Shown one piece after another: positions 11,104-50,205 of a stretch of DNA of 64,000 nucleotides; within the stretch, counting starts at the first letter, position 1, and each line of letters starts with the position of its first letter. Both the position numbers and the translations under genes were made by a program. Below the pieces are notes generated by a model that worked only from the letters and a program-made list of their open reading frames with translations, ran no database searches and was not told where the DNA came from. The DNA comes from Glycomyces artemisiae (GTDB taxonomy: Bacteria > Actinomycetota > Actinomycetes > Mycobacteriales > Micromonosporaceae). The stretch lies in assembly GCF_003002955.1 (NCBI RefSeq), contig NZ_PVTJ01000004.1, positions 62,001 through 126,000 of the forward strand, read 5' to 3'.

Positions 11104-11294
11104 TGCTGTCCTGCGTCTCCTGTCCGGCCGCGGCGGCGCCGGGCTCGGGGCCGCGGCGGCACATAGGAGATTACATGAACACGGCCTTATGTTCGCATGT
11201 CGGCCCGGTTTCGCGATCCTTGGGCACATCGTGCAACCTGGTCGCTCGCCCAGGCGTCGGCTCCCGCCGCGTCGGGGTCGCGGAGGGCCGTCCG

Positions 11295-11300
11295 TATGAT
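11295..11300 (+). promoter_or_regulatory. Candidate -10 TATGAT for the WbpD-like gene
   Basis: TATGAT on the plus strand, 37 bp before the ATG at 11338, giving a leader of about 30 nt with GAAGG as ribosome site. The same TATGATCG string occurs on the minus strand in front of the WbpE-like gene (17015-17020). No good -35 was found. Confidence 0.4.
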
Positions 11301-11337
11301 CGGGGCGCAGGTACAACGGACGACGCGAAGGCGAGCG

Positions 11338-11928
11338 ATGGCACACCGGATTCAACCGACGGCCCAGGTCCACGAGAGCGCCGCGATCGGGGACGGCACC
11401 AGCGTGTGGGAGCTCGCGCAGGTCCGCGAGGGCGCGTCCCTCGGCGCCGGCTGCGTCATCGGGCGCGGCGCGTACATCGGCACCGGCGTGCAGATCGGCG
11501 ACAACGTGAAGATCCAGAACTACGCCCTCGTGTACGAGCCCGCGCGGCTCGCCGACGGCGTGTTCATCGGCCCCGCCGCGGTCCTCACCAACGACCACAA
11601 CCCGCGCGCCGTGGGCGTCGACGGCGGCCGCAAGGGCGCCGCCGACTGGGAGGCCGTCGGCGTCGACATCGCCGAGGGCGCCTCGATCGGCGCGCGCGCC
11701 GTGTGCGTCGCCCCCGTCCGCATCGGCAGGTGGGCGATGGTCGCCGCGGGCGCCGTCGTCACCAAGGACGTCCCCGACCACGCGCTCGTCATGGGCGTGC
11801 CCGCCCGCCGCGCCGGCTGGGTCGGGCGCTCCGGCGAGCGCCTGAAGGAGGCCGGCGACGGCCTGTGGGAATGCCCCGCCACCGGCGAGCGCTACCGCGA
11901 ATCGGCCGCGGGCCTCGAACTCGCCTGA
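11338..11928 (+). CDS. Hexapeptide-repeat N-acetyltransferase, WbpD-like
   Basis: 196-residue left-handed beta-helix acyltransferase. From about residue 10 to 150 it consists of hexapeptide turns (IGDGTSV, VIGRGAYIG, VQIGDNVKI, ASIGARAV, VRIGRWAMVAAGAVV). The loop with NDHNPRA supplies the catalytic-type His seen in WbpD/PglD-like enzymes, and the ending VPDHALVMGVPARRAGWVG is typical. WbpD acetylates the 3-amino group of UDP-2-acetamido-3-amino-glucuronate; WbpB- and WbpE-like genes lie 3 kb away, which supports that reading. The start MAHRIQPTAQVHESA was preferred to an earlier in-frame start, because homology begins here. Confidence 0.85.
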   Translation: MAHRIQPTAQVHESAAIGDGTSVWELAQVREGASLGAGCVIGRGAYIGTGVQIGDNVKIQNYALVYEPARLADGVFIGPAAVLTNDHNPRAVGVDGGRKGAADWEAVGVDIAEGASIGARAVCVAPVRIGRWAMVAAGAVVTKDVPDHALVMGVPARRAGWVGRSGERLKEAGDGLWECPATGERYRESAAGLELA

Positions 11929-11941
11929 GCGGCGACGTGAA

Positions 11942-11975
11942 AGCGCCCGCCCGGTCATCCGACCGGGCGGGCGCT
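11942..11975. terminator. Bidirectional hairpin between convergent genes
   Basis: A perfect 15-bp stem (11942-11956 with 11961-11975) around the 4-nt loop ATCC lies between the ends of the WbpD-like gene (+) and the nucleotide-sugar dehydrogenase (-). No long T-run follows, as is usual in such G+C-rich genomes. Confidence 0.8.
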
Positions 11976-11988
11976 CGCGTCCAGGGGC

Positions 11989-13272
11989 CTACTGGCCGAT
12001 GACGATGTGGCGGCGGCCCTCCCAGGCGGCCGGGTCCGTGATGCGGCGCCCGTCGAGGAGGACGGCGACCTCCGGCAGGTCCGCGGCGGACAGCGACCGG
12101 TACTCGGCGTGGTCGGCCTGCACGACGGCGGCGGTGACGGTCTCGCCGCGGTGCGGGACGAGCCCCTCGGCCTCCAGCTCCGCGTCGGTGTACATCGGGT
12201 CGCTCACGTACACCGCGGCGCCCTTCGCCTTCAGCGACTCCACGAGCGGGAACACCCCGGAGAACGCGGTCTCCTTGACCCCGCCGCGGTAGGCCGCGCC
12301 GAGGACGAGCACCGAGGCGCCCTCCAGGCCCCCGTGGGCCGCTTCGAGGACGTCCGCGGAGTACGACGGCATCGCGGCGTTCGCGGCGCGGGCGGCGCGC
12401 ACCACCGTCGCGTCGGGGTCGTTCCACAGGTACATCTGCGGGTAGATCGGGATGCAGTGCCCGCCCACGGCGATGCCGGGCCGGTGGATGTGGCTGTACG
12501 GCTGCGAGTTGCACGCCTCGATGACCTTCATGACGTCCAGGCCCTGCTTGTCGGCGAAGCGCGCGAACTGGTTCGCGAGGCCGATGTTGACGTCCCGGTA
12601 CGTGGTCTCGGCGAGCTTCGCCATCTCCGACGCCTCGGCGGACCCGAGGTCCCACACGCCGTTGGGCCGCGGCAGGTCGTCGCGCTCGTCGAAGTCGAGC
12701 ACGGCCTCGTAGAACCGCACGCCCGCCTCGGCGGACGCCTCGTCGATGCCGCCGACGAGCTTCGGGTAGCGGCGCAGGTCCGCGAAGACCCGCCCGGTCA
12801 GGACCCGCTCGGGGCTGAACACCAGGTGGAAGTCCTTCCCGGCGGTGAGGCCCGAGCCGGCCTCCAGCATCGGCGCCCAGCGCTCGCGCGTGGTGCCCAC
12901 CGGCAGCGTCGTCTCGTAGGAGACGAGCGTGCCCGGCTTGAGGCCCTTGGCGACCGCCTGCGTGGCGGCGTCCATCCACCCGAAGTCCGGGACGCCCTCG
13001 GCGTCGACGAACAGCGGCACGACGATGACGACGGCCTCGGACTCGGCGACGGCGGCCGCGGTGTCCGTGGTGGCCCGCAGGTTCCCGGCGGCCACGGCCT
13101 CCTTCAGCTTCTCGCCGAGCAGGTGCTCGCCGGGGAAGGGCTCCACGCCGTCGTTGACGGCCTGGACGACCTTCGCGTTCACGTCGGCGCCGATGACCTC
13201 GTGGCCCTTCGCGGCGAACTGGACGGCCAGCGGCAGCCCGATCTTGCCCAATGCGACGACAGAGACTCTCAT
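11989..13272 (-). CDS. Nucleotide-sugar (UDP-GlcNAc/ManNAc-type) 6-dehydrogenase
   Basis: 427-residue NAD-dependent enzyme of the UDP-glucose/GDP-mannose dehydrogenase family, oxidising C6 of a UDP-sugar to a uronic acid. The N-terminal Rossmann domain starts VSVVALGKIGLPLAVQFA. The central domain has LAETTYRDVNIGLANQFARF, and the catalytic Cys lies in GIAVGGHCIPIYPQ. Sequence texture is closer to the WecC/WbpA type than to UDP-glucose dehydrogenase. AGGAAG lies 7 bp before the ATG at 13272, which I chose over a GTG at 13278. Co-transcription with WbpB- and WbpE-like genes suggests that it supplies the UDP-amino-uronate; the enzyme at 57598 is an alternative WbpA. Confidence 0.87.
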   Translation of the reverse strand: MRVSVVALGKIGLPLAVQFAAKGHEVIGADVNAKVVQAVNDGVEPFPGEHLLGEKLKEAVAAGNLRATTDTAAAVAESEAVVIVVPLFVDAEGVPDFGWMDAATQAVAKGLKPGTLVSYETTLPVGTTRERWAPMLEAGSGLTAGKDFHLVFSPERVLTGRVFADLRRYPKLVGGIDEASAEAGVRFYEAVLDFDERDDLPRPNGVWDLGSAEASEMAKLAETTYRDVNIGLANQFARFADKQGLDVMKVIEACNSQPYSHIHRPGIAVGGHCIPIYPQMYLWNDPDATVVRAARAANAAMPSYSADVLEAAHGGLEGASVLVLGAAYRGGVKETAFSGVFPLVESLKAKGAAVYVSDPMYTDAELEAEGLVPHRGETVTAAVVQADHAEYRSLSAADLPEVAVLLDGRRITDPAAWEGRRHIVIGQ

Positions 13273-13274
13273 GT

Positions 13275-14855
13275 TCACTTCCTGCTCGGTTTGAGGCCGA
13301 CGAGGTTCGCCACGCGGCGCTTCAGCGACGGCTTGCCCGACGAATGCACGACGATGAGGGACTTCCGCCCCCAGTCCACGGACACGTTACCCGGGCGGCC
13401 CTGCCGCTCGACGGGGCCTTTGACCGCGGTGAGGGGCAGGTCGTACACGAACGGCCCCATCGCGAGGTGGCCGCGCAGCGACCAGCGGCCCGCGGTGCCC
13501 GCGAGGTCGCCGAGTGGCAGCCGGGCCGCGAGCACCGTCGTGTCGCCGTCGGGCCGCAGCTCGACCTCGGCGGCCACGTCGTGGACGTGGAACTCTCCGG
13601 CCGGGACCGACCGGCGGGCGGCCGGACCCTTGGCCTTGACGAGGCGCTCGGCGCTGACGCCGACCGCGTCCGGCTCCAGTCCCGCGACCGGGACGCGGAA
13701 CCAGTACTCCAGGAAGAACCCGGTCGCCCGGTCCCCCGCCCACGCCAGGTCGACGGGGTCGATCCCCTTGGCGAGGCGGCCGATCACGCGCTCTGCCGTC
13801 GCCTCGTACCACGAGTCGGGGCAGCCCTCGCGGAACCCGCTGTAGCGGACGAACACGCGCCCGTCCTCGATCAGGAAGCGCGGGGCGTCCTCGCGGATCG
13901 CGTCCTCCAGCCGGTCCCATTCGCGCCGCTGCGCCAGCGAGATGCGCACGCGCTTCTCGGTCGGCAGCCGCTCGCGGATCGCCTCGGTCAGGTGCGCGTC
14001 GCAGAAGCCCGCGACGGCCTCCCAGAACTTCTCGCGCGACGACTTGTCCGCGGTCAGGAACTGCGGCTGCACGCACTTGGCGATCTCGCGGGAGAACACC
14101 CGGTACATGAGCGCCTCGCGCTCGGGCCCGGGGCCGTACAGGTCCTCGATCGCGGCCACGATCTGCTCGGCGGCGTGCACCCACTCGACCGGCCCGGTCG
14201 AGTAGATGAGGTTCCCGCCGGTCTCGCGCTTCACCGCGTAGTACGAGTCGTAGTCCGACTGGATCGTGATCTTCGACGCCTTCGCCATGGCGCGCAGCGT
14301 GAACGGCACGTCGGAGCAGACCGCCATCCCCTCGGGGAACCGCAGCCCCTCCGACTCGACCAGCTCGCGCCGGAACAGCTTCGTGTTCGACAGCGCCCAC
14401 GCCAGCTCCGGCGTCGGGAACGGGGCGTCGGCGACGTCCTCGGCGAACACGTCGGGCGCCTTGCGCCCGTTCACGCCGACCATCTTGCACAGCAGGACGT
14501 CCGAGCCCAGCTCGTCCGCCCGGTCGACCATCCGCTCCAGGGCCTCGGGCCCGAAGTAGTCGTCCGAGCCGATGAAGAACACGTACCGGCCCCGCGCGAT
14601 CTCCAGCGCCGCGTTGCACGGCGCCGCCGGACCGCCCGAGTTCGCCTGGTGCACCACCCGGAGCAGTCCCGGGTGCTCGGCCGCGAAGCGGTCCAGCTCC
14701 TCGTCGGAGCCGTCCGTCGAGCCGTCGTCCACGGCCACGACCTCGAACCGGTCGGCGCCGATCGTCTGCGCCGCCATCGAGTCCAGGCACGCCGTCAGGT
14801 ACGGCATCGTGTTGTACACCGGGATGACGACCGTGACGTCGGGGACCGCGCTCAT
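13275..14855 (-). CDS. GT2 glycosyltransferase resembling teichoic-acid enzyme TarS
   Basis: 526-residue protein with an N-terminal GT-A domain: VTVVIPVYNTMPYLTACLDS, EVVAVDDGSTDGS, NSGGPAAPCNAAL and the metal-binding FFIGSDDYFG. It continues with DVLLCKMVGVNGRK and a lineup close to the TarS/TarP GlcNAc transferases that decorate poly(ribitol phosphate) (family recalled, not searched). The C-terminal ~200 residues are beta-rich and could correspond to the TarS trimerisation region. ATGA overlap with the upstream oxidoreductase shows coupling. A wall-teichoic-acid decorating role would fit the TagF-like genes 5 kb away; the donor might be the uronic acid made by its neighbours. Both points are inference. 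Confidence 0.82.
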   Translation of the reverse strand: MSAVPDVTVVIPVYNTMPYLTACLDSMAAQTIGADRFEVVAVDDGSTDGSDEELDRFAAEHPGLLRVVHQANSGGPAAPCNAALEIARGRYVFFIGSDDYFGPEALERMVDRADELGSDVLLCKMVGVNGRKAPDVFAEDVADAPFPTPELAWALSNTKLFRRELVESEGLRFPEGMAVCSDVPFTLRAMAKASKITIQSDYDSYYAVKRETGGNLIYSTGPVEWVHAAEQIVAAIEDLYGPGPEREALMYRVFSREIAKCVQPQFLTADKSSREKFWEAVAGFCDAHLTEAIRERLPTEKRVRISLAQRREWDRLEDAIREDAPRFLIEDGRVFVRYSGFREGCPDSWYEATAERVIGRLAKGIDPVDLAWAGDRATGFFLEYWFRVPVAGLEPDAVGVSAERLVKAKGPAARRSVPAGEFHVHDVAAEVELRPDGDTTVLAARLPLGDLAGTAGRWSLRGHLAMGPFVYDLPLTAVKGPVERQGRPGNVSVDWGRKSLIVVHSSGKPSLKRRVANLVGLKPSRK

Positions 14856-15856
14856 GCCCGGCTTCCGTCGAGGACGACCGTCTCCCCGGTCGCGGCGGAC
14901 CGGAGCATCGACTCGGACACCTCCACGGTGCTCGCCCCCTGCCGCAGGTCGACGATGTCGTTCGGCTTCCCCAGGACCGCGTCCCGGAAGTGCTCGTGCT
15001 CGACCAGCAGCGGCTCGCGCTTGCGGATCGCGTACCGGACCATGTCGCCCTCGGAGACCCCGCGGAAGTTGCTGATCGCCTCCCACTCGGTCGCCTCGAC
15101 CCCGTTCGCGTAGAACGTCAGGTCCGCCGTCAGCGTGTCGGCGATGAAGCAGCCGCGGTCGCCCGTGACGACCGCCGTGCGCTCCTTGAAGGGGCTCAGC
15201 CAGTTCACCGAGTGGTTCGCGATCGCGCCGCCCGACAGCTGGCCGACCGCCGAGATCATGTCCTCGTGCTCCCGGCCCGACCGCGACACCGTGTGCGCGG
15301 TGACCGTGCTGTACGTCTGGCCGGTGACGAACCCGGTCAGGTCGATGTCGTGCGTCGCGAGGTCCTTGACGACCCCGACGTCGGCGATCCGGCCCGGGAA
15401 CGGGCCCTGGCGGCGCGTCGCGATCTGGAGGACCTCCCCCAGCTCGCCCGCCTTCAGGCGCTCGCGCAGGCTCGTGACCGCCGGGTTGAACCGCTCGATG
15501 TGGCCCACGCCCGCGACCAGGCCGCGCGACTCGAACGCCTCCGCGAGGACCTGCGCGGCCTTCGTGGTGTGCGCCAGCGGCTTCTCGATGAGCGCGTGGA
15601 CCCCGGCCTCGGCCAGGGCCAGGCCCACCTGCTCGTGGTACGCCGTCGGGCAGGCCACCACGACGTAGTCCACGCCGAGGCCGATCAGCTGCTCGACGTC
15701 CTCGACCAGGCGCCCCGCGGGCACCGCGGCCGCGTCGGCCACCGGGTCGGCGACCCCGACAAGGTCGACGCCGTCGAGGGCGTTCAGGACGCGGGCGTGG
15801 TTGCGGCCCATCGCCCCCATGCCGACCAGGCCGGCGCGCAGACGCCCGGCGCTCAC
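14852..15856 (-). CDS. Gfo/Idh/MocA oxidoreductase, WbpB-like
   Basis: 334-residue NAD(P)-dependent sugar oxidoreductase. The Rossmann start AGLVGMGAMGRNHARVL is followed by the family EKP motif (ALIEKPLA), VGHIERFNPAV and the catalytic-domain VVKDLATHDIDL with the conserved D..HDID. WbpB/WlbA oxidises the 3-OH of UDP-GlcNAcA to the 3-keto compound, which the neighbouring aminotransferase would then aminate. The start GTG at 15856 overlaps the stop of the aminotransferase (GTGA). Length is close to WlbA (about 310-350). Confidence 0.85.
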   Translation of the reverse strand: MSAGRLRAGLVGMGAMGRNHARVLNALDGVDLVGVADPVADAAAVPAGRLVEDVEQLIGLGVDYVVVACPTAYHEQVGLALAEAGVHALIEKPLAHTTKAAQVLAEAFESRGLVAGVGHIERFNPAVTSLRERLKAGELGEVLQIATRRQGPFPGRIADVGVVKDLATHDIDLTGFVTGQTYSTVTAHTVSRSGREHEDMISAVGQLSGGAIANHSVNWLSPFKERTAVVTGDRGCFIADTLTADLTFYANGVEATEWEAISNFRGVSEGDMVRYAIRKREPLLVEHEHFRDAVLGKPNDIVDLRQGASTVEVSESMLRSAATGETVVLDGSRA

Positions 15857-16956
15857 TGCGCCGGCTCCAGGGAGTGGACCGCCTCGACGATGCGGTCGAG
15901 GTCGCCCTCGCTCAGCGCGGGGTGGATCGGCAGGGACAGCACCTCGGCCGCGGCCCGGTCGGTCTCCGGCAGGTCCGCCTCGATGTGCGCGTACGGCGCG
16001 AGCCTGTGGATCGGGACGGGGTAGTACACGGCGGAGCCGACCCCGGCGGCGTTCAGCTGCTCCAGGGCCGCGTCGCGGCCCTCGGGCACCCGCACCGTGT
16101 ACTGGTGGTAGATGTGGCGCGCCCACGGCGCGACCGGCGGGACGACGACGCCCGCGGCGCCGGCGAGCCCCTTGTCGAGGTGCGCGGCGTTGGCGCGGCG
16201 CTGCTCGGTCCACTCGCCCAGCCGAGTCAGCTGGACCCGCCCGATCGCGGCCGACACGTCGGTCATGCGCATGTTCGCGCCCACGATCTCGTTCTGGTAC
16301 CGCACCTCCATGCCCTGGTTGCGCAGGAGCCGGAGCGTGCGGGCGAGCTTCGGGTCGTCCGTGGAGACCATGCCGCCTTCGAGGGCGTGCATGTTCTTCG
16401 TCGGGTAGAAGCTGAACGTCCCCGCGGCGCCGAAGGAGCCGACCGGGCGGCCCTCGACCTGCGCTCCGTGCGCCTGGCAGGCGTCCTCCAGGATCGCCAG
16501 GGAGCGGCGCTCGGCCAGTGCGGTGAGGCGGGTCATGTCGGCGGGGTGGCCGTACAGGTGCACGGGCATGATCGCGGCGGTCTTGGGGCCGATGAGGGCC
16601 TCGACGTGCGCGGGGTCGACGCAGAACGTGCCGGGCTCGATGTCGGCGAAGACCGGCTCGGCGCCGACGAGGCGGACCGCGTTCGCGCTGGCGGCGAACG
16701 AGAAGGAGGGGACGATGACCTCGTCGCCGGGGCCGATGCCCATGGCGAGGAGGGCGAGCTGGAGGGCCGACGTGCCGGAGTTGACGGCGACGCACTCGGC
16801 CGTCCCGGAGACCTTGGCGAACTCCTCTTCGAAGGCGGCCACCTCGGGGCCCTGGACGACCCGGCCGCTGCGCAGTACCGCTACGGCCGCTTCGATCTCG
16901 GCCTCGCCGATGTGCGGCTTCGCCGGGGGGATGAACTCCCGCTGTTGGTCAGGCAC
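15853..16956 (-). CDS. DegT/DnrJ/EryC1 aminotransferase, WbpE-like
   Basis: 367-residue PLP-dependent sugar aminotransferase. Key signs are VNSGTSALQLALLAMGIGPG, VIVPSFSFAASANAV, LEDACQAHGA and the PLP-lysine segment FSFYPTKNMHALEGGM (Lys of TKN). WbpE transfers an amino group from glutamate to UDP-3-keto-GlcNAcA. I start it at GTG 16956, which has GGAG 6 bp upstream and gives REFIPPAKPHIG at the N-terminus as in homologs; an ATG at 17019 would add 21 non-homologous residues. The candidate -10 TATGAT lies at 17015-17020 upstream. Confidence 0.87.
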   Translation of the reverse strand: MPDQQREFIPPAKPHIGEAEIEAAVAVLRSGRVVQGPEVAAFEEEFAKVSGTAECVAVNSGTSALQLALLAMGIGPGDEVIVPSFSFAASANAVRLVGAEPVFADIEPGTFCVDPAHVEALIGPKTAAIMPVHLYGHPADMTRLTALAERRSLAILEDACQAHGAQVEGRPVGSFGAAGTFSFYPTKNMHALEGGMVSTDDPKLARTLRLLRNQGMEVRYQNEIVGANMRMTDVSAAIGRVQLTRLGEWTEQRRANAAHLDKGLAGAAGVVVPPVAPWARHIYHQYTVRVPEGRDAALEQLNAAGVGSAVYYPVPIHRLAPYAHIEADLPETDRAAAEVLSLPIHPALSEGDLDRIVEAVHSLEPAQ

Positions 16957-17014
16957 GTGTCTCTCCGCGTTCTCCGGAACGGTCTGGACTTCGCACTGGG
17001 TTGGTGCGCGATCG

Positions 17015-17020
17015 ATCATA
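17015..17020 (-). promoter_or_regulatory. Candidate -10 TATGAT for the WbpE-like operon
   Basis: TATGAT on the minus strand about 59 bp before the GTG at 16956. The same TATGATCG string stands before the WbpD-like gene. No convincing -35. Confidence 0.35.
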
Positions 17021-18800: not shown

Positions 18801-20486
18801 CTACGCGGCGGTCTCGACGGCGCCGGCGGTCTTGACGACCGGCTGCGCGTAGGTCTCGCGGACGGCGTCGGCGAAGACCTCGAACAGGTCTTCGGGCGCG
18901 TGGTCGCCGAGGTAGTACTCGCGGGTGCCGGCCCGCTGCGCGGCCTTGGAGTCGGTGTCGAACAGCTCCGCCATGACCGCTTCGGCGTTCTTCGCGCCGG
19001 GCTTGAGCAGGTAGGCGCCGGCGGCGACGGGGAACTCCTCCAGGTAGCCGCCGCCCAGGCCCCGCGGGTCGGTCATCGCGAACGGCTTGCCGCTGTAGAG
19101 CCAGTCGGAGGCCGCGCCGCTGATGTCGCACACGGCCGCGTCGGCGGCGTTGATGCAGTCGGCGAGGGACATCTCGGACTCGGCGGCGGCGCCCCAGCGG
19201 TGCGGCAGGCCGGTGCGGGAGGCGTCGGCGGCGAGCATCGCGCGGATGGCCTCGGCGCGGGCCTGGTAGGCGGCGTTGGTGCTGGTGTAGGGGTGGGTCC
19301 GGAAGTGGACGGCGACGCCGCGGGCCAGGGCGGCCTCGACGATCGTCGCGCCTTCCTTCAGCGACGAGTAGTTGACGTCCTCGGTGAAGCCGGTCCAGGT
19401 GGGGGCGTAGAGGAGCACGGGCGGCTCGTCGGGGCCCTTCTCGCGCGGGCCGACCTTGATGCCGTGGAGCTGCGGGCGGCCGATGCGGCGGAACTTCCGC
19501 TCGGGGATGTCGACGCCGTGGCGGTGGTACCGGTCGACGCCGGCCTGCCCGGCGACGAACACGCGGTCGTACATCAGCGAGAGGGCGCTGCGGCTGATCG
19601 CCTTGTCGGAGTCGCCGTGCATGAGCTGGATGTGCAGGAGCTCGCCGTGGCGGATGAGCGCGGTGTTCTTCTGCGCGTGGTTGGAGTAGAAGCAGGCGCG
19701 GACGCTCTCGGGCAGGAGCTTGTCGAGGACCGACTGGCCGGGGGCGAGCACGACCGGGGCGCTCGTGCACGCGACGGTGCCGCGCATGAGGAACTCGTCG
19801 CGGACGAGGACGAGGTACGGGTCGCCGATCTTGTCGAAGTACGGCAGCCACATCTCGATCTGGTACTCCGAGAGGCGGGCGCCGCCGAAGTGCACCACGT
19901 ACTTCGGCTGGAGGCGCTCGACGGCGGCGACGACGGCCTCGTCGATGGGGTGCGACACGCGCCGGCGCAGCAGCAGGTTCGCGACGACCGCGTCGCCGGC
20001 CCACACGAGCGAGGCGAGGACGAGGACGAGCGCGGCCCAGTCGGCGGCGGGCCGCAGCGCCGCGGGGGCGGCGGCGGCCAGGGGCAGGGCCACGGCGGTG
20101 AAGCCGGTGACCAGGGCGATCGGGACCGGCGCGGCGGCGCGGCCGCGCAGCGTCCGGCGCACGTCGAGGTTCGCGGTCTCCAGGTACGACAGTGACAGTG
20201 CGATGCGGATGGCCCCGGCGACCGACTGGAAGCCGGCGACGAGGACGCAGCCGACGATGAGCTCCCAGCGCTGCGGGGTGTCGGACCAGGCCGCGACGAG
20301 GACCGCGATGACGGCGATGAGCCGCGCGGTGCGCATCGCGGAGAGGTTGTCGCGGTAGTACCAGGCCGTGGTCGCGAGGACCGCGGCGGCGAGTGCGTAG
20401 GCCAGCAGGTGCGTGTGCGCCGCGGTCGCGGCGACGACCGCCGTGATGGCGACGATCTCGTACCGCTGTCTCCACAGTCGGGACAT
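18801..20486 (-). CDS. Membrane-anchored TagF-like CDP-glycerol glycerophosphotransferase family protein, copy 1
   Basis: 561 residues. The first ~185 contain five to six hydrophobic helices, unlike soluble TagF. The remainder is the GT-B-like polymerase domain that transfers polyol phosphate from a CDP donor: LMHGDSDKAISRS, VFVAGQAGVDRYHRHGVDIP, LLYAPTWTGF, VHFRTHPYT and VCDISGAASDWLYSGKPFAM, the last corresponding to the conserved DxS segment. Teichoic acid chains are the usual product. It is a tandem paralog of 20636-22387 with about the same topology. The ATG at 20486 has GGAG 5 bp upstream. The CDP-linked donor might come from the cytidylyltransferases at 22426 and 23278 (inference). Confidence 0.86.
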   Translation of the reverse strand: MSRLWRQRYEIVAITAVVAATAAHTHLLAYALAAAVLATTAWYYRDNLSAMRTARLIAVIAVLVAAWSDTPQRWELIVGCVLVAGFQSVAGAIRIALSLSYLETANLDVRRTLRGRAAAPVPIALVTGFTAVALPLAAAAPAALRPAADWAALVLVLASLVWAGDAVVANLLLRRRVSHPIDEAVVAAVERLQPKYVVHFGGARLSEYQIEMWLPYFDKIGDPYLVLVRDEFLMRGTVACTSAPVVLAPGQSVLDKLLPESVRACFYSNHAQKNTALIRHGELLHIQLMHGDSDKAISRSALSLMYDRVFVAGQAGVDRYHRHGVDIPERKFRRIGRPQLHGIKVGPREKGPDEPPVLLYAPTWTGFTEDVNYSSLKEGATIVEAALARGVAVHFRTHPYTSTNAAYQARAEAIRAMLAADASRTGLPHRWGAAAESEMSLADCINAADAAVCDISGAASDWLYSGKPFAMTDPRGLGGGYLEEFPVAAGAYLLKPGAKNAEAVMAELFDTDSKAAQRAGTREYYLGDHAPEDLFEVFADAVRETYAQPVVKTAGAVETAA

Positions 20487-20590
20487 GTGTGCTCCATCGG
20501 ATGAATGAGTTAACGGGCTCTTAACCCAAGATGAAGTAAACACGTCCGATGTTTGTCTCCGGTGGCAGGGATCACCGAAATGGACGCGAC

Positions 20591-20622
20591 GCGGGGGCCC
20601 CGCCGGAGTCGGCGGGCCCCGC
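20591..20622. terminator. Imperfect G+C-rich hairpin after the second TagF-like gene
   Basis: GCGGGGGCCCCGCCG (20591-20605) pairs with CGGCGGGCCCCGC (20610-20622) with two bulged bases around a 4-nt loop. It lies just past the stop of the gene at 20636 and before the next gene of the same strand. Confidence 0.55.
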
Positions 20623-20635
20623 GGTCGCGGCGGCG

Positions 20636-22387
20636 TCAGGCGGCCTGGGCCAGTGCGGACTCGCCGGTCGCGGTCTTGCGGACCTGGCGCGCGTAGGTGT
20701 CCCTGACTTCGGCGGCGAACACTTCGATGAGGTCGCCGGGCTTGATGTCGCCGAGGTAGTACTCGCGGACCTCGGCGCGCAGGTCGGCCTTGGAGTCGCG
20801 TAGGAGCAGCTCGTCGAGGACGGCGTCGATGTTCCCGGCGTCGGGCTTCAGCAGGTACGCGGCCTTGGCGAGCGGGAACTCGTCGAGGTAGTGCTCCTCG
20901 AAGCCCTTCGGGTCGGTCATGGCGAAGGGGCGGCCCGAGTAGAGCCAGTCGGAGGCGGTGCCGGAGATGTCGGAGATCGCGACGTCGGCGGCGTTGATGC
21001 AGTCGGTGAGGCTGACGGCGGACTCGGCCTGGTCGCCCCACAGGTGCGGGCGGCCGGTCTTCGCGGCGTCCTCGGCGATGAGGGACTTGATGTCGTCGGC
21101 GAGCGCCTGGTAGGCGGCGTTGGTGCGGGTGTAGGGGTGGGTGCGGAAGATGACGTCGACGTCGCGGGCCAGGATCGCCTGCACGATCTTCTTGCCCTGC
21201 TTGAGGGACGAGTAGTTGACGTCGGCGGTCAGGCCGGTCCAGGTGGGCGTGTAGAGGACGGTCTGGCGGCCCTCGTCGGCCTTGTCGCGGCGGCCGACCT
21301 GCATGGCGTGCAGCTGGGGCCGGCCGATGCGGCGGAACTTGTAGTTGGGGATGTCGACGCCGTGGCGGTGGTAGCGGTCGACGCCGGCCTGTCCGGCGAC
21401 GAAGACCCGGTCGTACATGAGCGAGACGGGGCTGCGGCTGATGGCCTTGTCGGAGTCGCCGTGCATGAGCTGCACGTGGAGGTACTTGTCGAGCTTGATG
21501 AGCTGCGCGTTCTTGACCGCGTGGTTGACGTAGTAGCAGGCGCGGACGCTGGAGGGCAGCAGCGTGTCGAGGACCGACTGGGCCGGGACGAGGACGATCG
21601 GGGCCTTGGTGCGGGCGGCGATGCCGTCGACGAGGTACCGGTCGCGGATGATGATGAGGTACGGGTCGCCGACGGCCTCGAAGTAGTCGAGCCACATCTG
21701 GAGCTGGTACTCCGATTCGCGGGCGCCGGCGAAGTGGATGACGAACTTCGGCTGGAGGCGGCGGACGGCGCTGATGACCTGGATGTCGACGGGGTGGGAG
21801 ACCTTGCGGCGGTGCAGGTAGTTCTGGAGCACGGCCGAGCCGATCCATCCGAACGCGGCGGCGGTGGCGGCGAGGACGATCAGGTCGGCGCCGAACCGGA
21901 ACTCCCCCAGCGGGAGCGAGCCGAGGACGTACAGGATGGACACGGCGTCGAAGAGGCGGCCGACCGATCCGGGCGTGGTGAGCTGGGAGCGGCGGGTCCG
22001 CACGATGTCGAGGTTGTGGGTCTGGAGGTAGCCGACGTTCAGGGCCCGGTTGAAGATGTCGGCGTAGGCGATGAAGAGGGTGACGCCGAGCCCGGCGAGG
22101 AGCATCGGCCAGCGGTCGAGGCCGCCGGAGTACCAGGCGAGGATGAGCAGCGCGAGCGCGGCGAGGGTGCGGGGGATGCGGAAGCCGGCGACGCCGGTCC
22201 GGTCCTGCCAGGCGGCGACCCCGAACACGGCGAGCGAGAACGCTGTGGTGAGCCATGGCGTGTCGGTGAGGGCGACGGCGGCGACGACCGCCCCCACCGC
22301 CAGCAGGTTCGTTCGGATGGGCCAGGATTTCAGCAGTCTCTTCAACTCGCCGTGCCTCGGATTCGGTCTCGCATGGCTGTGTCGCAA
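20636..22387 (-). CDS. Membrane-anchored TagF-like glycerophosphotransferase family protein, copy 2
   Basis: 583 residues with about five to six N-terminal hydrophobic segments (residues ~20-190) followed by the TagF-type catalytic domain: LMHGDSDKAISRSPVSLMYD, YHRHGVDIPNYKFRRIGRPQ, TPTWTGLTADVNYSSL, FRTHPYTRTNAAYQAL and ISDISGTASDWLYSGRPFAM. Catalytic blocks are nearly the same as in copy 1, whereas the membrane part differs. The start is uncertain: the first possible codon is a TTG at 22387 without a clear ribosome site, and a TTG at 22345 is an alternative. The two copies may act as primer and polymerase, as TagB and TagF do; this is inference. Confidence 0.83.
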   Translation of the reverse strand: MRHSHARPNPRHGELKRLLKSWPIRTNLLAVGAVVAAVALTDTPWLTTAFSLAVFGVAAWQDRTGVAGFRIPRTLAALALLILAWYSGGLDRWPMLLAGLGVTLFIAYADIFNRALNVGYLQTHNLDIVRTRRSQLTTPGSVGRLFDAVSILYVLGSLPLGEFRFGADLIVLAATAAAFGWIGSAVLQNYLHRRKVSHPVDIQVISAVRRLQPKFVIHFAGARESEYQLQMWLDYFEAVGDPYLIIIRDRYLVDGIAARTKAPIVLVPAQSVLDTLLPSSVRACYYVNHAVKNAQLIKLDKYLHVQLMHGDSDKAISRSPVSLMYDRVFVAGQAGVDRYHRHGVDIPNYKFRRIGRPQLHAMQVGRRDKADEGRQTVLYTPTWTGLTADVNYSSLKQGKKIVQAILARDVDVIFRTHPYTRTNAAYQALADDIKSLIAEDAAKTGRPHLWGDQAESAVSLTDCINAADVAISDISGTASDWLYSGRPFAMTDPKGFEEHYLDEFPLAKAAYLLKPDAGNIDAVLDELLLRDSKADLRAEVREYYLGDIKPGDLIEVFAAEVRDTYARQVRKTATGESALAQAA

Positions 22388-22425
22388 GTAGTTCTAGCTC
22401 GCCGGTTCGACGCTTCCGGTTCCAA

Positions 22426-23121
22426 TTACTTGAAGTGCTGGTTAACGGAGTTCAGGTCTTCCGCGAAGTCCACTTCGATGACGTTGTGCTGCGAGATGTC
22501 GACGGCCTCGAACCTGAGCCCGTCCTTCTCGATGGCGAGCTCGATGCCGCCCTCGAAGTAGTCCTGGTCGTCGACCTCGGCGAGCCGCTTGGCGACGAGC
22601 GCGCGGTCGTCGGCGGACACGTAGTTGATGCCGACCGCTTCGCCCAGGGCGCCTTCGGAGACGCGCTTGGAGAGCTTGTTGATGTAGCCGTCGGCGCCGA
22701 GCGTGTACTTGACCTCCTCGTCGGAGACCTTCGCGGTGTTCACGGCGACGAAGGAGTGGTCCATGGCGATGTGCGGCAGGAGCACGTCGAGGACCTGCGG
22801 GTCGAAGACGACGTCGCCGTTGAGCCACAGGACCCCGCCGGGGCCGAGGATGGTGAACGCCTTGAGGAGGCTCTTGGAGGTGTTGGTGTCGCCGTAGGCC
22901 TGGTTGTAGATGAAGCCGACGTCGGGCACCTCCTCCATGATCATCTCCTTCTTGAAGCCGACGACGAGGTGGATGGAGTGGCGGCTGAACCGGGAGGTGA
23001 GCAGGCGCAGCGAGCGGCCGAGGATGGTCTCGCCGGTGTTCAGGGGCGTCAGGGGCTTGGGGTGCGGTTTGCCGAGCCGGGAGCCGACGCCGGCCGCGAG
23101 GATCACGATGTTCGTGGACAT
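22426..23121 (-). CDS. LicC-like sugar/alcohol-phosphate nucleotidyltransferase
   Basis: 231-residue NTP transferase. N-terminal signature NIVILAAGVGSRLGKPHPKP with the G-X-G-X-R loop and the substrate Lys; DTNTSKSLLKAF and LWLNGDVVFDP supply the mid-domain Asp; the end VIEVDFAEDLNSVNQHF is typical of LicC-type choline-phosphate cytidylyltransferases. It would activate a phosphorylated alcohol or sugar, probably with CTP, for the neighbouring TagF-like transferases. The ATG at 23121 has GAGG about 11 bp upstream; a GTG 12 bp earlier is possible. Substrate not readable from sequence. Confidence 0.83.
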   Translation of the reverse strand: MSTNIVILAAGVGSRLGKPHPKPLTPLNTGETILGRSLRLLTSRFSRHSIHLVVGFKKEMIMEEVPDVGFIYNQAYGDTNTSKSLLKAFTILGPGGVLWLNGDVVFDPQVLDVLLPHIAMDHSFVAVNTAKVSDEEVKYTLGADGYINKLSKRVSEGALGEAVGINYVSADDRALVAKRLAEVDDQDYFEGGIELAIEKDGLRFEAVDISQHNVIEVDFAEDLNSVNQHFK

Positions 23122-23277
23122 GTCGAGAGCCACCTCGTTCGATTGGGATGCTGGATTGGTGCAGTTTACCTAGTTGAACGTGCGATGACGCATAGCCCAA
23201 CGTGCGGTGGACCCGGGTGTCACACCTTCCGCGGCCCCCTGCCGGGAGCGCCGCGCCGCGGCTGCTCGCGGCCCGTT

Positions 23278-23991
23278 TCAGGCTCTGAGCAGGGCTTCCG
23301 CCAAGACGAGGTCGGCGGGCGAGGTGACCTTGAGGTTCCGTTCGGCGCCCGCGACGGTGCGGACGGGGACGTCGGGGCGGAAGCGCAGGACGACCGAGCA
23401 GTCGTCGGTGGGGGTGAACGCCGGGTCGTCCGCGGCGGCGGCGTGGGCCTCGGCGATGAGGCCGAGCCGGAACCCCTGGGGGGTCTGGACCCGGGCGAGT
23501 CCGGCGCGGTCGGGGACGGCGGTGATGCGTCCGCCGTGGACTTCGACGACCGTGTCCGAGGAGGGGATCACCGCGGTCACGGCCTCGCCGTCGTCGAGGG
23601 CCGCGGCCACATCGGCGATGATCCGGCCGGTGACGAGCATGCGGGCGGCGTCGTGGACGAGCAGTTTCGCGCGGTCCCCGACGCCGACCTGCGACCGCGC
23701 CCAGCGGATGGCCGCGGCGGAGGAGTCGGCGCGGGAGGCCCCGCCGCCGATCACCGCCGAGAGTTTTGTCACATTTGCGGACTTGGCTATGGTCCAGGCC
23801 GCTTCGTGGTGGCCTTCGGCCATGACGAGGACGATCCGGTCGACCGCGGCGCTCGCCTGGAACGCCTCCAGCGTGTGCTGGAGGACCGGCTTGCCCGCGA
23901 CCTCCAGGAGCTGCTTGGGGAGGGCGGCGCCCATGCGGGCGCCGGTCCCTCCGGCGAGCACGGCCGCGATCGTCGGCTGAGCGGTGGTCAC
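23278..23991 (-). CDS. IspD/TarI-family cytidylyltransferase
   Basis: 237-residue CTP-dependent cytidylyltransferase. The opening AAVLAGGTGARMGAALPKQ, GGASRADSS, VHDAARMLV, PSSDTVVEV and RVQTPQGFR are the IspD family series. Two activities share this scaffold: IspD (isoprenoid MEP pathway, usually next to ispF) and TarI (CDP-ribitol synthesis, next to tar genes). There is no ispF or carD here, and the neighbours are TagF-like and LicC-like genes, so a TarI-type role is at least as likely. The usual Pro after HDAAR is replaced by Met. GTG 23991 has GGGAG 6 bp upstream. Confidence 0.82.
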   Translation of the reverse strand: MTTAQPTIAAVLAGGTGARMGAALPKQLLEVAGKPVLQHTLEAFQASAAVDRIVLVMAEGHHEAAWTIAKSANVTKLSAVIGGGASRADSSAAAIRWARSQVGVGDRAKLLVHDAARMLVTGRIIADVAAALDDGEAVTAVIPSSDTVVEVHGGRITAVPDRAGLARVQTPQGFRLGLIAEAHAAAADDPAFTPTDDCSVVLRFRPDVPVRTVAGAERNLKVTSPADLVLAEALLRA

Positions 23992-24068: not shown

Positions 24069-25238
24069 TCAGGCGCGGGCGGCGAGGACCTTCTCGAAGA
24101 CGTCCACGTGCCCGCCGACGACGTTCTGGGGCTCGTAGCGCTTGGCGGTCTCCCGGCCGGCGTCGGCGAGCTTGCGGCGCAGGCTCGGGTCGCCCATGAG
24201 GCGGCGCAGCGCCCCGGCCAGCTCGGTCGGGTTCTTCGGCTCGACGAGCAGGCCGTTCTCCTCGTCGCGGACGATCTCCAGGGGGCCGTGCTTGACGGCG
24301 GTGCACACCACCGGCAGGCCCGCGGCCATGGCCTCCACGATGACGAGCCCGAACGGCTCGAAGCGGGAGGGGATCGCGGCGATCGACGCGTGCTGCCACT
24401 CGGCGTCGAGCGGCGTCTTCGGCCCGGGCAGCAGGATGCGGTCTTCGAGGCCGTGGTCCTTGATGCGGTTGGTGATCTTGGTGCGGTCGCGCCCGCGGCC
24501 GAAGATCTTCACCTTCCACTCCGGGAACTCGTCGGCGACCTGCGCGAACGCGTGCACGAGGATGTCGAAGCCCTTCATGCCGGTGAGGCGCCCGGCGGTC
24601 ATGATGACCGGCTCGGTGAGCTCCGAGGGCGGCAGCGGGTTCGCCGGGATGGCGTTCGAGACGCACGTGACCTTGTCGGCGGCCTGCGGCAGGGCCTCGC
24701 GGTAGGCCTTCGCGTCGGCCTCGGTGATCGTGACGATCGCGTCGAACTTCGGGTAGTTCTCCAGGATCAGCTCGCGGTGCCGCTCGGCGTAGTGGTCGAG
24801 GTACAGGTGCTCCTGGGCGACCATCGCGTACCGCTCGGGGCGGCCGTACATCGCCATGTACAGGTTCACGCTGATCTGCGTGCCGACCACGACGTCCGTA
24901 TCGTGGCGGGCCAGGAACTTCTTCACTCGGACATCGAGCAGTTTCGACGACTCGCCCATGTTGTTGACCTTGTCGGCGTCGAGCACCGACTTCGACTTCG
25001 CCTGCCAGCGCTCGATGAAATTGAGCTTCTCGCCGCCGTCCTCCGGTTTCCTGGTGTCCCAGAGATTGACGACCTTCACCCTTTTGTCGACGGGGAAGTC
25101 GGCTTTCCTCTTGCTTCTGATGCACGATGCGATCGTCACGTCGTGACCGAGCCCTGCCAGCGCTTCGGCGGTGTTCAGGGTGGTCTTGATGGTGCCTCCG
25201 ATGCCCCAGATGTTCCGGACCAGGAAAGTGATGCGCAT
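24069..25238 (-). CDS. GT4 glycosyltransferase
   Basis: 389-residue GT-B enzyme. N-terminus MRITFLVRNIWGIGGTIKTT with the GG loop of GT4 enzymes; AQEHLYLDHYAERHREL in the acceptor half; donor half with IMTAGRLTGMKGFDILVHAF and RFEPFGLVIVEAMAAGLPVV, including the two Glu of the EX7E motif. The length is typical. The ATG at 25238 has only a weak GAG upstream, and a short inverted repeat (TCGAAA 25243-25248 / TTTCGA 25254-25259) covers the ribosome-site position. A role in linking or decorating the polymer made by the adjacent genes is inferred. Confidence 0.88.
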   Translation of the reverse strand: MRITFLVRNIWGIGGTIKTTLNTAEALAGLGHDVTIASCIRSKRKADFPVDKRVKVVNLWDTRKPEDGGEKLNFIERWQAKSKSVLDADKVNNMGESSKLLDVRVKKFLARHDTDVVVGTQISVNLYMAMYGRPERYAMVAQEHLYLDHYAERHRELILENYPKFDAIVTITEADAKAYREALPQAADKVTCVSNAIPANPLPPSELTEPVIMTAGRLTGMKGFDILVHAFAQVADEFPEWKVKIFGRGRDRTKITNRIKDHGLEDRILLPGPKTPLDAEWQHASIAAIPSRFEPFGLVIVEAMAAGLPVVCTAVKHGPLEIVRDEENGLLVEPKNPTELAGALRRLMGDPSLRRKLADAGRETAKRYEPQNVVGGHVDVFEKVLAARA

Positions 25239-47371: not shown

Positions 47372-49354
47372 TCAGGCGGCCGCGGCGCGCGAGGCGCGGA
47401 CCGTCCCGGCCACGACCGCGCCGACGAACACCGACGCGACGTACACCGCGAGCACTCCGTAGACCACTGTGGCCACTACAGGCCCGGTCGCGACGGCGAC
47501 GGCCGCGGCGACGAGCGCGATGAGGCTGCGCACGGGCCAGCCGAGGCCGAGGTCCCGGCGGGCCACCGGCGAGGCGGCCTTGTCGAGGCCCGCGGCGAGG
47601 TCGTAGAAGTACAGGGCGATCACGGTGAGCAGCAGGTACAGGACCGGCCAGGCGACCTCGGCGGCGATCCCGGCGGAGCAGATCGCGCCGAGCTCGACGG
47701 CGCGCAGCCCGGCCGGGATGTACCAGTCGAGGATGCCCTCGTGGTCGGTGCGGGCCACCGACCCGGCCAGGACCAGCGCGAGCGCGGCGAGCCCGAACGG
47801 GACCCACGGGGGCGTCCCGAGGGCCGCGGCGAGCACGGCGGCACCGGCGGCGAGGACGGCGGCGGCGGTCGCGGCGAACGGCGTCATGTCGCCGCCGAAG
47901 CGGGCGCGCGGGGCGAGGCGGGCGATCGGCCCGTCGTCGCGGTGCGCGGACCGGTCGGGGCGTCGCAGGGCCGCGGTCCGGGCCGCGAGGGACCGGAGCG
48001 TGCGGCCCGCGGTCGTGTACCCGAGGGCGAGGAGCTGCCAGCACAGGAGCGCCGCGATGGCGGTCTGCGGCCCGAACGCGACGGCGGCGACGGCGAGCAG
48101 CAGCCACCGCTCGCCGACGGGCGCCACAATGGTCCGCTTCGCCCAGTACAGGACCGAGCGGTGCGCGCCCATGACCTGCTCGGAGGCGGAGCCGAGGCGT
48201 TCGCCGAGGTGCGCGGCGCGGCCCGAGGGCGGCGCCGACTCGCGCTTGCGGGCCTGGCGGACCACGGCGGTGTCGAGGAGCACGGCGTACCAGGTGTCGG
48301 CGGTGTGCCTGACGGTCTGGGTCGCCATGGCGGCGATGGCGAGGCCCCACGCGGCCGGGGCGGAGGCGCCGCCCGCGACGGCGCCCGCGGCGAGGCCCGC
48401 GTAGATGAGGAACTCCTTCGAGCGGTCGGCCATCATGTCGAGCCAGCCGCCGAACGAGGAGAAGTTCTGGGTGTACCGGGCCAGCTGGCCGTCGACGCAG
48501 TCGAAGACGAAGCTGAAGTACATGAGCGCCGCGGCCGCGAGATACCACCAGGACCAGCCGGTGGCGAAGATCCCGGCGGCGGCGACCGCGAGCGTGATCG
48601 ACACCCACGTGATCGGCGTCGGGGTCCAGCCGAGGCGCGCCGAGAGCTTCACGAGCTTCGGGGACCAGGACGAGACGGCGTAGGTCGCGAAGAAGTCGTC
48701 GTCGTGCTTGACGGCGTTCTTGAGCCGCCACGCGTCCATGTCGACGGCCTCGAACGCGGCGATGACCTCGCGGGCCTCCTCGCCGGTCGCGACCTGGCGG
48801 TGCTCCAGGCCCGAGGTGCGGTAGGCGTTGACGGGGACGGCACGGGCGTGGAGCGCGGCGAGGACGCCTTCGAAGGCGTCCCCCCGGGCCTGGCGCGGCC
48901 AGTGCCGCTCCAGGCGGGCGAGGTGCGCCGCGGAGACCTTCGCGAGGCCGCCGAGGCGGGTCTGCCCGGGCCCGGGGCCGGTGACCAGGCCGCGCTCGAC
49001 GAGGACGGTGGCCGCGGTCGGGTCGTCGGCGCCGACGAGGACCCCGGAGCGGCGCGAGGAGTCGGAGAGGACGGCGGCGACGGTCGTCTGGGAGGCCACG
49101 AGGTCGGCGCAGGCGACGAACAGGGGCCCGTCGCCGGAGAACGCGATCTCCCCGAGGTGGGCCAGGTCGGCGTCGGCGTCCGCCGACGGGAGCTGGGTCG
49201 CTTTGACGGGCCGGTCCGTGCCGGGCCTGGTGAGGACGGTGACGTCGTCGCAGCCGGCCTCGCGGATCTGCGCGATGAGCCGGTCGAGGACCGTGCGGTC
49301 CTCATCGATGTCGGCGAAGCCGCCCGGGGCCGGCAGGATGACGGCCCGGCTCAC
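47372..49354 (-). CDS. Nucleotidyltransferase-like / CDP-alcohol phosphotransferase fusion membrane protein
   Basis: 660 residues in three parts. Residues 1 to ~210 resemble a cytidylyltransferase (VILPAPGGFADIDEDRTVLD) but lack the G-X-G-X-R and Lys signature. About 230-330 form a CDP-alcohol phosphotransferase core with the full motif DCVDGQLAR, eight residues, then GGWLDMMAD, i.e. DGX2ARX8GX3DX3D intact. The last ~280 residues hold six or more membrane helices and may be the actinobacterial DUF5941-type region (from memory). The layout recalls archaeal IPCT/DIPP synthase. It would transfer an alcohol phosphate from a CDP carrier to a lipid or sugar alcohol. GTG 49354 overlaps the ABC ATPase stop (GTGA). 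Confidence 0.85.
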   Translation of the reverse strand: MSRAVILPAPGGFADIDEDRTVLDRLIAQIREAGCDDVTVLTRPGTDRPVKATQLPSADADADLAHLGEIAFSGDGPLFVACADLVASQTTVAAVLSDSSRRSGVLVGADDPTAATVLVERGLVTGPGPGQTRLGGLAKVSAAHLARLERHWPRQARGDAFEGVLAALHARAVPVNAYRTSGLEHRQVATGEEAREVIAAFEAVDMDAWRLKNAVKHDDDFFATYAVSSWSPKLVKLSARLGWTPTPITWVSITLAVAAAGIFATGWSWWYLAAAALMYFSFVFDCVDGQLARYTQNFSSFGGWLDMMADRSKEFLIYAGLAAGAVAGGASAPAAWGLAIAAMATQTVRHTADTWYAVLLDTAVVRQARKRESAPPSGRAAHLGERLGSASEQVMGAHRSVLYWAKRTIVAPVGERWLLLAVAAVAFGPQTAIAALLCWQLLALGYTTAGRTLRSLAARTAALRRPDRSAHRDDGPIARLAPRARFGGDMTPFAATAAAVLAAGAAVLAAALGTPPWVPFGLAALALVLAGSVARTDHEGILDWYIPAGLRAVELGAICSAGIAAEVAWPVLYLLLTVIALYFYDLAAGLDKAASPVARRDLGLGWPVRSLIALVAAAVAVATGPVVATVVYGVLAVYVASVFVGAVVAGTVRASRAAAA

Positions 49355-50205
49355 GCCTCGCCCGCTCCCGGTACGAGGGCCGGGACGGGGGCGGCCTGCT
49401 CGGCGGCCTTCGCCGCCGCGGCGGCGCGGCGGGCCTTGCGCTCCTCCTTGGCCTTGGCGTCGCGGGCCTCGGCCTCCTTGTAGGCGGCGAGGGCCTCTTC
49501 GACCGTGCCGTCGGTCTCCAGGGTCCCTGCGTCGAGGAAGATGCCGCGCTCGCAGTACTTCTTCAGGTCGCCTTCGGAGTGGGACACGAACACGAGGGTC
49601 CGGCCCTCCTTGAGGAGCCCGGCGATGACCTGCTGGCACTTGCGCTTGAACGCGGCGTCGCCGACGGCGAGGGCCTCGTCGACCAGGAGGATCGGGTGCG
49701 GGAGCTGCGTGATGACGCCGAAGCCGAGGCGGACCTTCATGCCCGAGGAGTAGTACTTGACGGGCGTGTCGATGAAGTCTTCGAGCTCGGAGAAGTCGAC
49801 GATCTCGTCGAACTTGGCCTTGATCTCCTTGGTGGTCATGCCGTGGAGGGCGGCCACCAGGTTGACGTTCTCGCGGCCGGTGAGCTCGCCGGAGAACCCG
49901 GCGGACAGGGCGATGAGGGGCGCGACGCGGCCTTCGCGGCGCACGTAGCCCTCGTCGGGGATGAGGACCCCGGTGATGAGGCGCAGCAGCGTCGACTTGC
50001 CGGTGCCGTTGCGTCCGATGATGCCGACGGCGTCGCCGGGGAAGATGTCGAAGTTGACGTGGCGCAGCGGCCAGAAGTCCTGCTGCTGGGCACCCTGCTT
50101 GTTGGCGGCGCGCCGCACGAACAGGTCCTTGACCCGGCCTTTCTTCTGCTTGCCTTTCGCAAAGCAGATCCCGAGGTCACGAGCCTGAATGATCGGCTCC
50201 TCCAT
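49351..50205 (-). CDS. TagH/Wzt-like ABC exporter ATPase
   Basis: 284-residue ATP-binding subunit of a polysaccharide or teichoic acid exporter. The N-terminal insertion KGKQKKGRVKDLFVRR before the first strand is typical of TagH/Wzt. Walker A GIIGRNGTGKSTLLRLITG, signature KYYSSGMKVRLGFGV, Walker B ILLVDEALAVGD and the switch His in VFVSHSE are intact. The C-terminus is an Ala/Lys/Glu helix. No permease (TagG/Wzm) gene is in this window, so the partner must be elsewhere. It is coupled to the CDP-alcohol phosphotransferase fusion, hinting that its substrate includes that product. Confidence 0.92.
   Translation of the reverse strand: MEEPIIQARDLGICFAKGKQKKGRVKDLFVRRAANKQGAQQQDFWPLRHVNFDIFPGDAVGIIGRNGTGKSTLLRLITGVLIPDEGYVRREGRVAPLIALSAGFSGELTGRENVNLVAALHGMTTKEIKAKFDEIVDFSELEDFIDTPVKYYSSGMKVRLGFGVITQLPHPILLVDEALAVGDAAFKRKCQQVIAGLLKEGRTLVFVSHSEGDLKKYCERGIFLDAGTLETDGTVEEALAAYKEAEARDAKAKEERKARRAAAAAKAAEQAAPVPALVPGAGEA

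Follow-up and report, generated by a model that had tools for sequence, protein, structure and literature searches.

A cluster of four genes in a stretch of 64,000 nucleotides from Glycomyces artemisiae (contig NZ_PVTJ01000004.1, positions 62,001 to 126,000; termed the window) encodes two proteins similar to the wall teichoic acid polymerase TagF, here named A and B, together with a LicC-like cytidylyltransferase and a cytidylyltransferase of the IspD/TarI family. With moderate confidence we take the window to contain a portion of a Glycomyces cell-wall glycopolymer locus that varies between species, in which A and B are duplicated transferases, the LicC-like enzyme provides their donor and the IspD-like enzyme belongs to the methylerythritol phosphate (MEP) pathway. 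A preliminary description of the same DNA had given the order and the positions of the four genes correctly (Table 1), including the two cytidylyltransferases adjoining the TagF-like genes. The intergenic gaps are 144, 38 and 149 bp, read from the IspD-like gene via the LicC-like gene and A to B.

A and B are the sole matches to PF04464 in the genome, and both matches are weak (28.2 bits for A and 20.5 bits for B at the protein level, with a cut-off of 22.1 bits). A lies above the cut-off; B falls below it as a protein (21 bits in a six-frame search) and exceeds it with its neighbours in frame (22.4 bits). Modelled with AlphaFold from 38 aligned sequences (pLDDT 89, pTM 0.84), A shows a helical N-terminus (residues 22–39, 44–61, 70–107, 139–155 and 161–195) followed by a GT-B body. 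The best PDB match of this model in Foldseek was TagF (3l7l, E 9.2e-8), and VIA-align gave a Z score of 19.4 for both TagF 3l7k (residues 211–570) and TarL 8va1 (residues 211–563), with many unrelated GT-B enzymes close behind at Z 17–19. The structural model and the TagF-like GT-B fold refer to A alone. A sequence search of the PDB with A returned two matches only (E 0.27 and 0.42), which were taken as chance. Five to six N-terminal membrane helices had been claimed for both polymerases, and membrane topology as judged from hydropathy (five segments in A, five to six in B) and from the model of A agrees with this.

The likeness to the TagF/TarL wall teichoic acid polymerases (PF04464; PDB 3l7i-m, 8va1) lies in the GT-B catalytic domain, the histidine of the HG motif and the HP motif, and suggests that A and B use a cytidine diphosphate (CDP)-alcohol. 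The difference lies in the N-terminus, which is soluble in TagF/TarL but formed by several membrane helices in A and B, and in the weak Pfam score of the latter. A carries the motifs MHG (H309) and THP (H417). Both histidines were equated by motif with H444 and H584 of TagF, the roles of which are described in an excerpt of PMC11666461; according to the same excerpt, glycerol-phosphate polymerases have WHG in place of MHG. In A and its membrane-anchored relatives the WHG motif of TagF appears as MHG, LHG, GHG or FHG, a variation that might point to another donor or acceptor. H309, G310, K314, P357-Q358, T382-W383, H417-P418, D473 and D480 are invariant across 38 aligned relatives, B included. 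With the conserved motifs intact in both proteins, their sequences do not suggest that only one of the two is active. The data support the assignment of A and B as membrane-anchored transferases of the TagF family.

The two proteins share 56% identity overall (531 aligned residues), with 32.6% in the membrane part (58/178), 66.4% in the catalytic part (249/375) and 71.1% in the catalytic core. The contrast between similar catalytic and differing membrane parts that was drawn before is thereby upheld, whereas "almost identical" overstates the likeness of the catalytic blocks. A profile of A and B matched at least once in all 22 Glycomyces genomes, which argues that the pair is more than a chance arrangement. 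Within Glycomyces, A and B form sister clades, with support of 0.996 and 1.0 and a joining node of 0.997, in a tree calculated from 55 TagF-family proteins. The B clade was found in five (G000, G006, G007, G008 and G013) of the 21 genomes placed in the tree; G017 has a fragment only. Eight of the 22 genomes have a single TagF match; that of G017 is this fragment, and that of G020 lies 1.1 kb from a contig end. The LicC-like protein and a standalone IspD accompany such a single match as well (e.g. in G001, G011, G015 and G016). The genomes with one TagF match and the restricted occurrence of B indicate that a strict two-enzyme mechanism is not general. The earlier pairing of two cytidylyltransferases with two polymerases is not supported either, since B was found in few of the genomes placed and both cytidylyltransferases also occur with one TagF. 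A and B stem from a lineage-specific duplication of a membrane-anchored TagF variant, for which LicC is most likely the supplier.

The LicC-like gene is the constant element of the locus and was found in 20 of the 22 Glycomyces genomes, with 77–98% identity outside the window genome; among the 22, it was not found in G014, where the cluster reaches the contig end, or in G017, a fragmented assembly. At a threshold of 1e-25, LicC was detected in 29 of 150 genomes from the order, including 25 that do not belong to Glycomyces. In the 20 of these 25 loci for which the neighbourhood was read, LicC has an adjacent TagF-family gene on the same strand in 14 (in L245 with a mis-framed LicC call), a CDP-alcohol phosphotransferase gene in four and neither in two. 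A Pfam comparison of eight of these 14 TagF neighbours gave a PF04464 match for each, with 289–316 bits in six cases and 35 bits in two; among the four phosphotransferases, the check covered one. In the loci L230, L233, L235 and L238 of one genus with large genomes (f13 g15), a CDP-alcohol phosphotransferase gene follows LicC within about 20 bp and replaces the TagF gene. The best evidence for LicC as the maker of the CDP-alcohol for A and B is that it adjoins TagF or CDP-alcohol phosphotransferase genes in other genera, and the proposed association of a CDP-alcohol-type cytidylyltransferase with a TagF-family polymerase is, for LicC, borne out by its recurrence in other families. The protein is assigned to Pfam NTP_transf_3, and it resembles LicC, PntC and IPCT (inositol-phosphate cytidylyltransferase) in this domain and in the modelled fold, at 16–23% identity in the Foldseek rows; the fold matches span several specificities. 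From its sequence and setting, it is the probable CDP-alcohol supplier for A and B. LicC also adjoins a LicD-family gene in Stackebrandtia G169 (24.9 bits; L273, 814–2881) and in Glycomyces G012 (35.5 bits; L064, 16506–18445).

The IspD-like protein is more likely an enzyme of the MEP pathway than the supplier of a second donor. We infer this role from its being the sole full-length IspD match in the genome, from the presence of dxr and ispF, from the lack of ispD between carD and ispF, from the lack of a reductase among the neighbours scanned and from pocket motifs that are not of the ribitol type. Two other IspD matches in the genome are partial (a 506-aa frame taken as GlmU and a 195-aa open reading frame (ORF) read as MobA/MocA-like). 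ispF was found in the window genome; dxr was found in 21 of the 22 Glycomyces genomes and is missing from the G017 assembly (3.3 Mb in 360 contigs). carD and ispF are 25 bp apart in the window genome; in all six relatives whose arrangement was read, namely Verrucosispora and five members of the same family, the order is carD-ispD-ispF. No reductase of the SDR, TarJ or ribulose-phosphate type was seen among the window neighbours that were scanned, which did not comprise every ORF, and the protein itself is without the SDR domain of a CDP-ribitol synthase. Its pocket reads HDAARM and VQTPQGF, different from the HDAVRP and GQTPQ of IspD-SDR fusions and of a TarI-like protein of L. plantarum. These pocket positions carry meaning for methylerythritol phosphate. 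Of the 17 standalone Glycomyces IspD proteins, 16 have HDAAR, the remaining one has HDGAR, and 15 have VQTPQGF; HDAAR and VQTPQGF are also the motifs of canonical IspD (HDAAR in 14 of 14 rows). All four Glycomyces fusions have HDAVRP and GQTPQAF.

Compared with canonical actinobacterial IspD, encoded between carD and ispF, the window protein is alike in HDAAR, in VQTPQGF and in being the only full-length IspD, and differs in genome position, in the LAGGTGARMG loop and in an overall sequence closer to the fusions. By score and in the best tree, its nearest family comprises the IspD-SDR bifunctional CDP-ribitol synthases with the IspD-SDR-TagF operons of Micromonospora, from which it differs by the missing SDR domain and the other pocket motifs. 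We take these synthases to be of the Acs1/Bcs1 type. By its sequence, the window protein could be a canonical IspD that moved and diverged or a CDP-ribitol-type enzyme that was re-tuned; it would have the MEP role under either origin.

Several observations weigh against the functions proposed here for the two cytidylyltransferases. The model of the LicC-like protein is mediocre (pLDDT 66) and its matches include PntC, KdsB, IPCT and LicC, and no polymer gene was recognised beside LicC in Stackebrandtia G168, Phytomonospora and Actinorhabdospora. The IspD-like protein misses the curated IspD score of TIGR00453 (175.5 versus 181.3 bits), and in a tree calculated without the pocket columns the standalone Glycomyces IspD proteins stand beside the IspD-SDR fusions (support 81/88), although grouping them with canonical IspD was not rejected (p-AU 0.258). 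In all 17 genomes the standalone IspD is encoded near TagF, LicC or the GT4 gene of the cluster, which would suit a role in polymer synthesis too. A second TarI-like clade has HExAR and VQLPQ, which means that motif letters alone are no proof of MEP specificity, and Phytomonospora, in which dxr is present, has a single IspD-family protein that belongs to this clade. Moreover, four Glycomyces genomes (G002, G004, G009 and G021) have no standalone IspD and instead a fusion with a ribitol-type pocket. The search for genes of isoprenoid biosynthesis was confined to dxr, ispF and ispD, and the window genome is the one Glycomyces genome in which the surroundings of carD and ispF were inspected.

Across the 22 Glycomyces genomes, 17 encode a standalone IspD, the four just named an IspD-SDR fusion, in each of which Pfam confirmed the SDR domain, and G014 neither. 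In the fusion-only genomes, the fusion would also have to serve the MEP pathway, or another enzyme does. The absence of IspD from G014 was considered as proof that the enzyme is dispensable and rejected, because the cluster ends at the contig end and LicC and IspD are both missing, which fits an assembly gap. In two loci (L062, 6725–12173; L066, 2138–7364), IspD-SDR fusions are situated directly upstream of two TagF-like genes; the genomes concerned carry dxr and have no other full-length IspD. Three genomes (G003, G005 and G019) have an extra, distant IspD close to a different TagF; in G005 and G019, where this was checked, an SDR gene separates the two. The CDP-ribitol-type modules of Glycomyces, either a fusion or a different IspD followed by a separate reductase gene, adjoin TagF subfamilies other than A/B. 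A far-reaching interpretation is that the isoprenoid IspD of Glycomyces was taken over by the wall-polymer cytidylyltransferase family. Canonical IspD would have been lost from the carD-ispF site, leaving exactly one IspD domain related to CDP-ribitol synthases in each of 21 of the 22 genomes: 17 standalone ones with a re-acquired methylerythritol-type pocket and four reductase-fused ones making both CDP-methylerythritol and CDP-ribitol. We regard this scenario as distinctly doubtful.

Three TagF proteins of another clade (G010, G012 and G014) adjoin a fusion of a cytidylyltransferase with phosphoenolpyruvate (PEP) mutase (L064, 9769–15339; L061, 7819–12243; L065, 16504–19692). After the fusion, G012 and G014 encode a thiamine pyrophosphate enzyme of the phosphonopyruvate decarboxylase type, to which G012 adds an iron alcohol dehydrogenase. 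This set may represent a phosphonate donor module and could explain the phosphonoglycans reported for Glycomyces. A paper on phosphonoglycans from 2014 reportedly deals with Glycomyces and Stackebrandtia.

In the mechanism proposed here, A and B would be TagF/TarL-type CDP-alcohol phosphotransferases anchored in the membrane. Working on its inner side, they would extend a lipid-linked or growing chain by units of polyol phosphate or a similar phosphodiester. The CDP-alcohol for A, and for B where present, would come from the LicC-like enzyme. The IspD-like enzyme, encoded in this locus and not in the carD-ispD-ispF position, would not feed the polymer and would, as the only IspD of the cell, make CDP-methylerythritol for isoprenoids.

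A different division of labour had been suggested in the preliminary description, with two CDP-alcohols (e.g. of glycerol and ribitol) made by the LicC-like and the IspD-like enzyme and each used by one of the two polymerases for a copolymer. The adjacency of the four genes, TarI 6xhp as the best PDB match of the IspD-like protein and its position in the tree near IspD-SDR fusions that adjoin TagF genes in Micromonospora and Mumia would all fit, but no ribulose-phosphate-type reductase was found among the neighbours scanned, the pocket motifs are unlike those of the fusions, and the protein is the sole IspD of a genome that also carries dxr and ispF. In addition, both cytidylyltransferases occur with one TagF, and A and B are sister clades with catalytic domains that are 66% identical. 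A copolymer of this kind is unlikely; the case for LicC as a supplier is strengthened; the IspD-like enzyme as a second supplier is doubtful. If both polymerases used the LicC product, they could instead be a primase similar to TagB/TarF and a polymerase similar to TagF/TarL. Their tandem order, the one nearby LicC and the divergent membrane domains are in accordance with this, and primers and polymerases can share PF04464, with transition transferases and polymerases of this one family known, according to the excerpt of PMC11666461. Because eight of the 22 genomes have one TagF match and B is restricted to five of the 21 placed, the pair is not generally needed, and we consider a primase–polymerase pair possible, if somewhat doubtful.

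It was also considered that the LicC-like and not the IspD-like enzyme replaces IspD in the MEP pathway of the lineage. This idea was raised by LicC orthologues (58–76% identity) in all four relatives examined whose IspD matches score just 124–172 bits. Of the seven IspD proteins concerned, five were included in the tree, and these five lie outside the canonical clade. Verrucosispora and G084, which have a canonical IspD, possess only LicC paralogues of 31–32% identity, none of 15 genomes of the same family has LicC at 1e-25, and LicC is highly conserved in Glycomyces. The idea lost ground because an IspD match at 1e-15 was also present in each of the 25 genomes of the order that carry LicC and lie outside Glycomyces, and because a TagF or CDP-alcohol transferase gene borders LicC in 18 of the 20 loci read in these genomes. 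LicC is also lacking in G134 and G147, two genomes in which no IspD match reached this threshold. The LicC proteins of the lineage do not form one clade, and position 8 alone separates them from others. Such a replacement is highly improbable, and LicC is retained as the probable donor enzyme of A and B.

The cluster (Table 1) is bounded by topA and a conserved gene for a 269-aa protein without a Pfam match, and its content varies between Glycomyces species: transferases, TagF copies and the position of IspD differ, whereas LicC is constant. Among named relatives, the locus is nearest to that of G. dulcitolivorans (95%). The DegT gene is present in 12 of 17 Glycomyces stretches compared, some of which stop short of its place. 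The best NCBIfam match of the Gfo/Idh protein is UDP-N-acetylglucosamine 3-dehydrogenase, below the cut-off. The set of dehydrogenase, Gfo/Idh protein, DegT aminotransferase and hexapeptide acyltransferase resembles the Wbp route to a diacetamido-uronic acid. Farther away in the window (47372–49639), an ORF of 755 aa combines a CDP-alcohol phosphotransferase domain with a weak DUF5941 match; a Stackebrandtia protein (L274, 9453–11543) has both domains, and genes for an IspD-like protein and a further CDP-alcohol phosphotransferase lie near its own.

Table 1. Genes of the cluster and its surroundings, with positions in the window.
Feature	Position	Strand	Remarks
TagF-like B, 561 aa	18801–20486	minus	5–6 N-terminal membrane segments and a PF04464-like domain
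TagF-like A, 583 aa	20636–22387	minus	TTG start, alternative TTG at 22345; membrane helices and GT-B domain
LicC-like cytidylyltransferase (NTP_transf_3)	22426–23133	minus	Alternative ATG start at 23121; probable CDP-alcohol supplier
IspD/TarI-family cytidylyltransferase, 237 aa	23278–23991	minus	Sole full-length IspD of the genome; putative MEP-pathway enzyme
GT4 glycosyltransferase of the same cluster	24069–25238	minus	Adjoins topA (topA by Pfam)
Nucleotide-sugar part of the locus	11197–17019		Hexapeptide acyltransferase (plus); NDP-sugar dehydrogenase, GT2 with TarS linker, Gfo/Idh dehydrogenase and DegT aminotransferase (all minus)

In the literature searched on Glycomyces wall polymers, on CDP-ribitol and CDP-glycerol in actinobacteria, on IspD alternatives and on PF04464, no paper was recognisable as describing this locus. 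The bifidobacterial tag cluster of PMC12286996 is similar in being an actinobacterial cluster with two tagB genes and ispD; as excerpted, its description includes tagG and tagH and makes no mention of LicC, and the likeness to the window is one of description only. Homologues of ISPD make either CDP-methylerythritol or CDP-ribitol (excerpt of PMC4873967).

If the MEP role of the IspD-like enzyme is true, it bears on the view of IspD as an evolutionarily rigid step of the MEP pathway, which is taken in the excerpted text of PMC10663253; the E-value threshold given there would count TarI-like or wall-polymer-type homologues as IspD. The four fusion-only Glycomyces genomes would then be well suited to test whether a bifunctional enzyme joins isoprenoid and wall-polymer synthesis. 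For the wall polymers, the comparison indicates that, within a single genus, a TagF-type core is shared and the CDP-alcohol modules around it are exchanged, namely LicC with A/B, an IspD-reductase fusion, a separate IspD with a reductase and a phosphonate-forming PEP mutase module, and by this exchange the building block of the wall polymer of each species should become predictable and open to testing.

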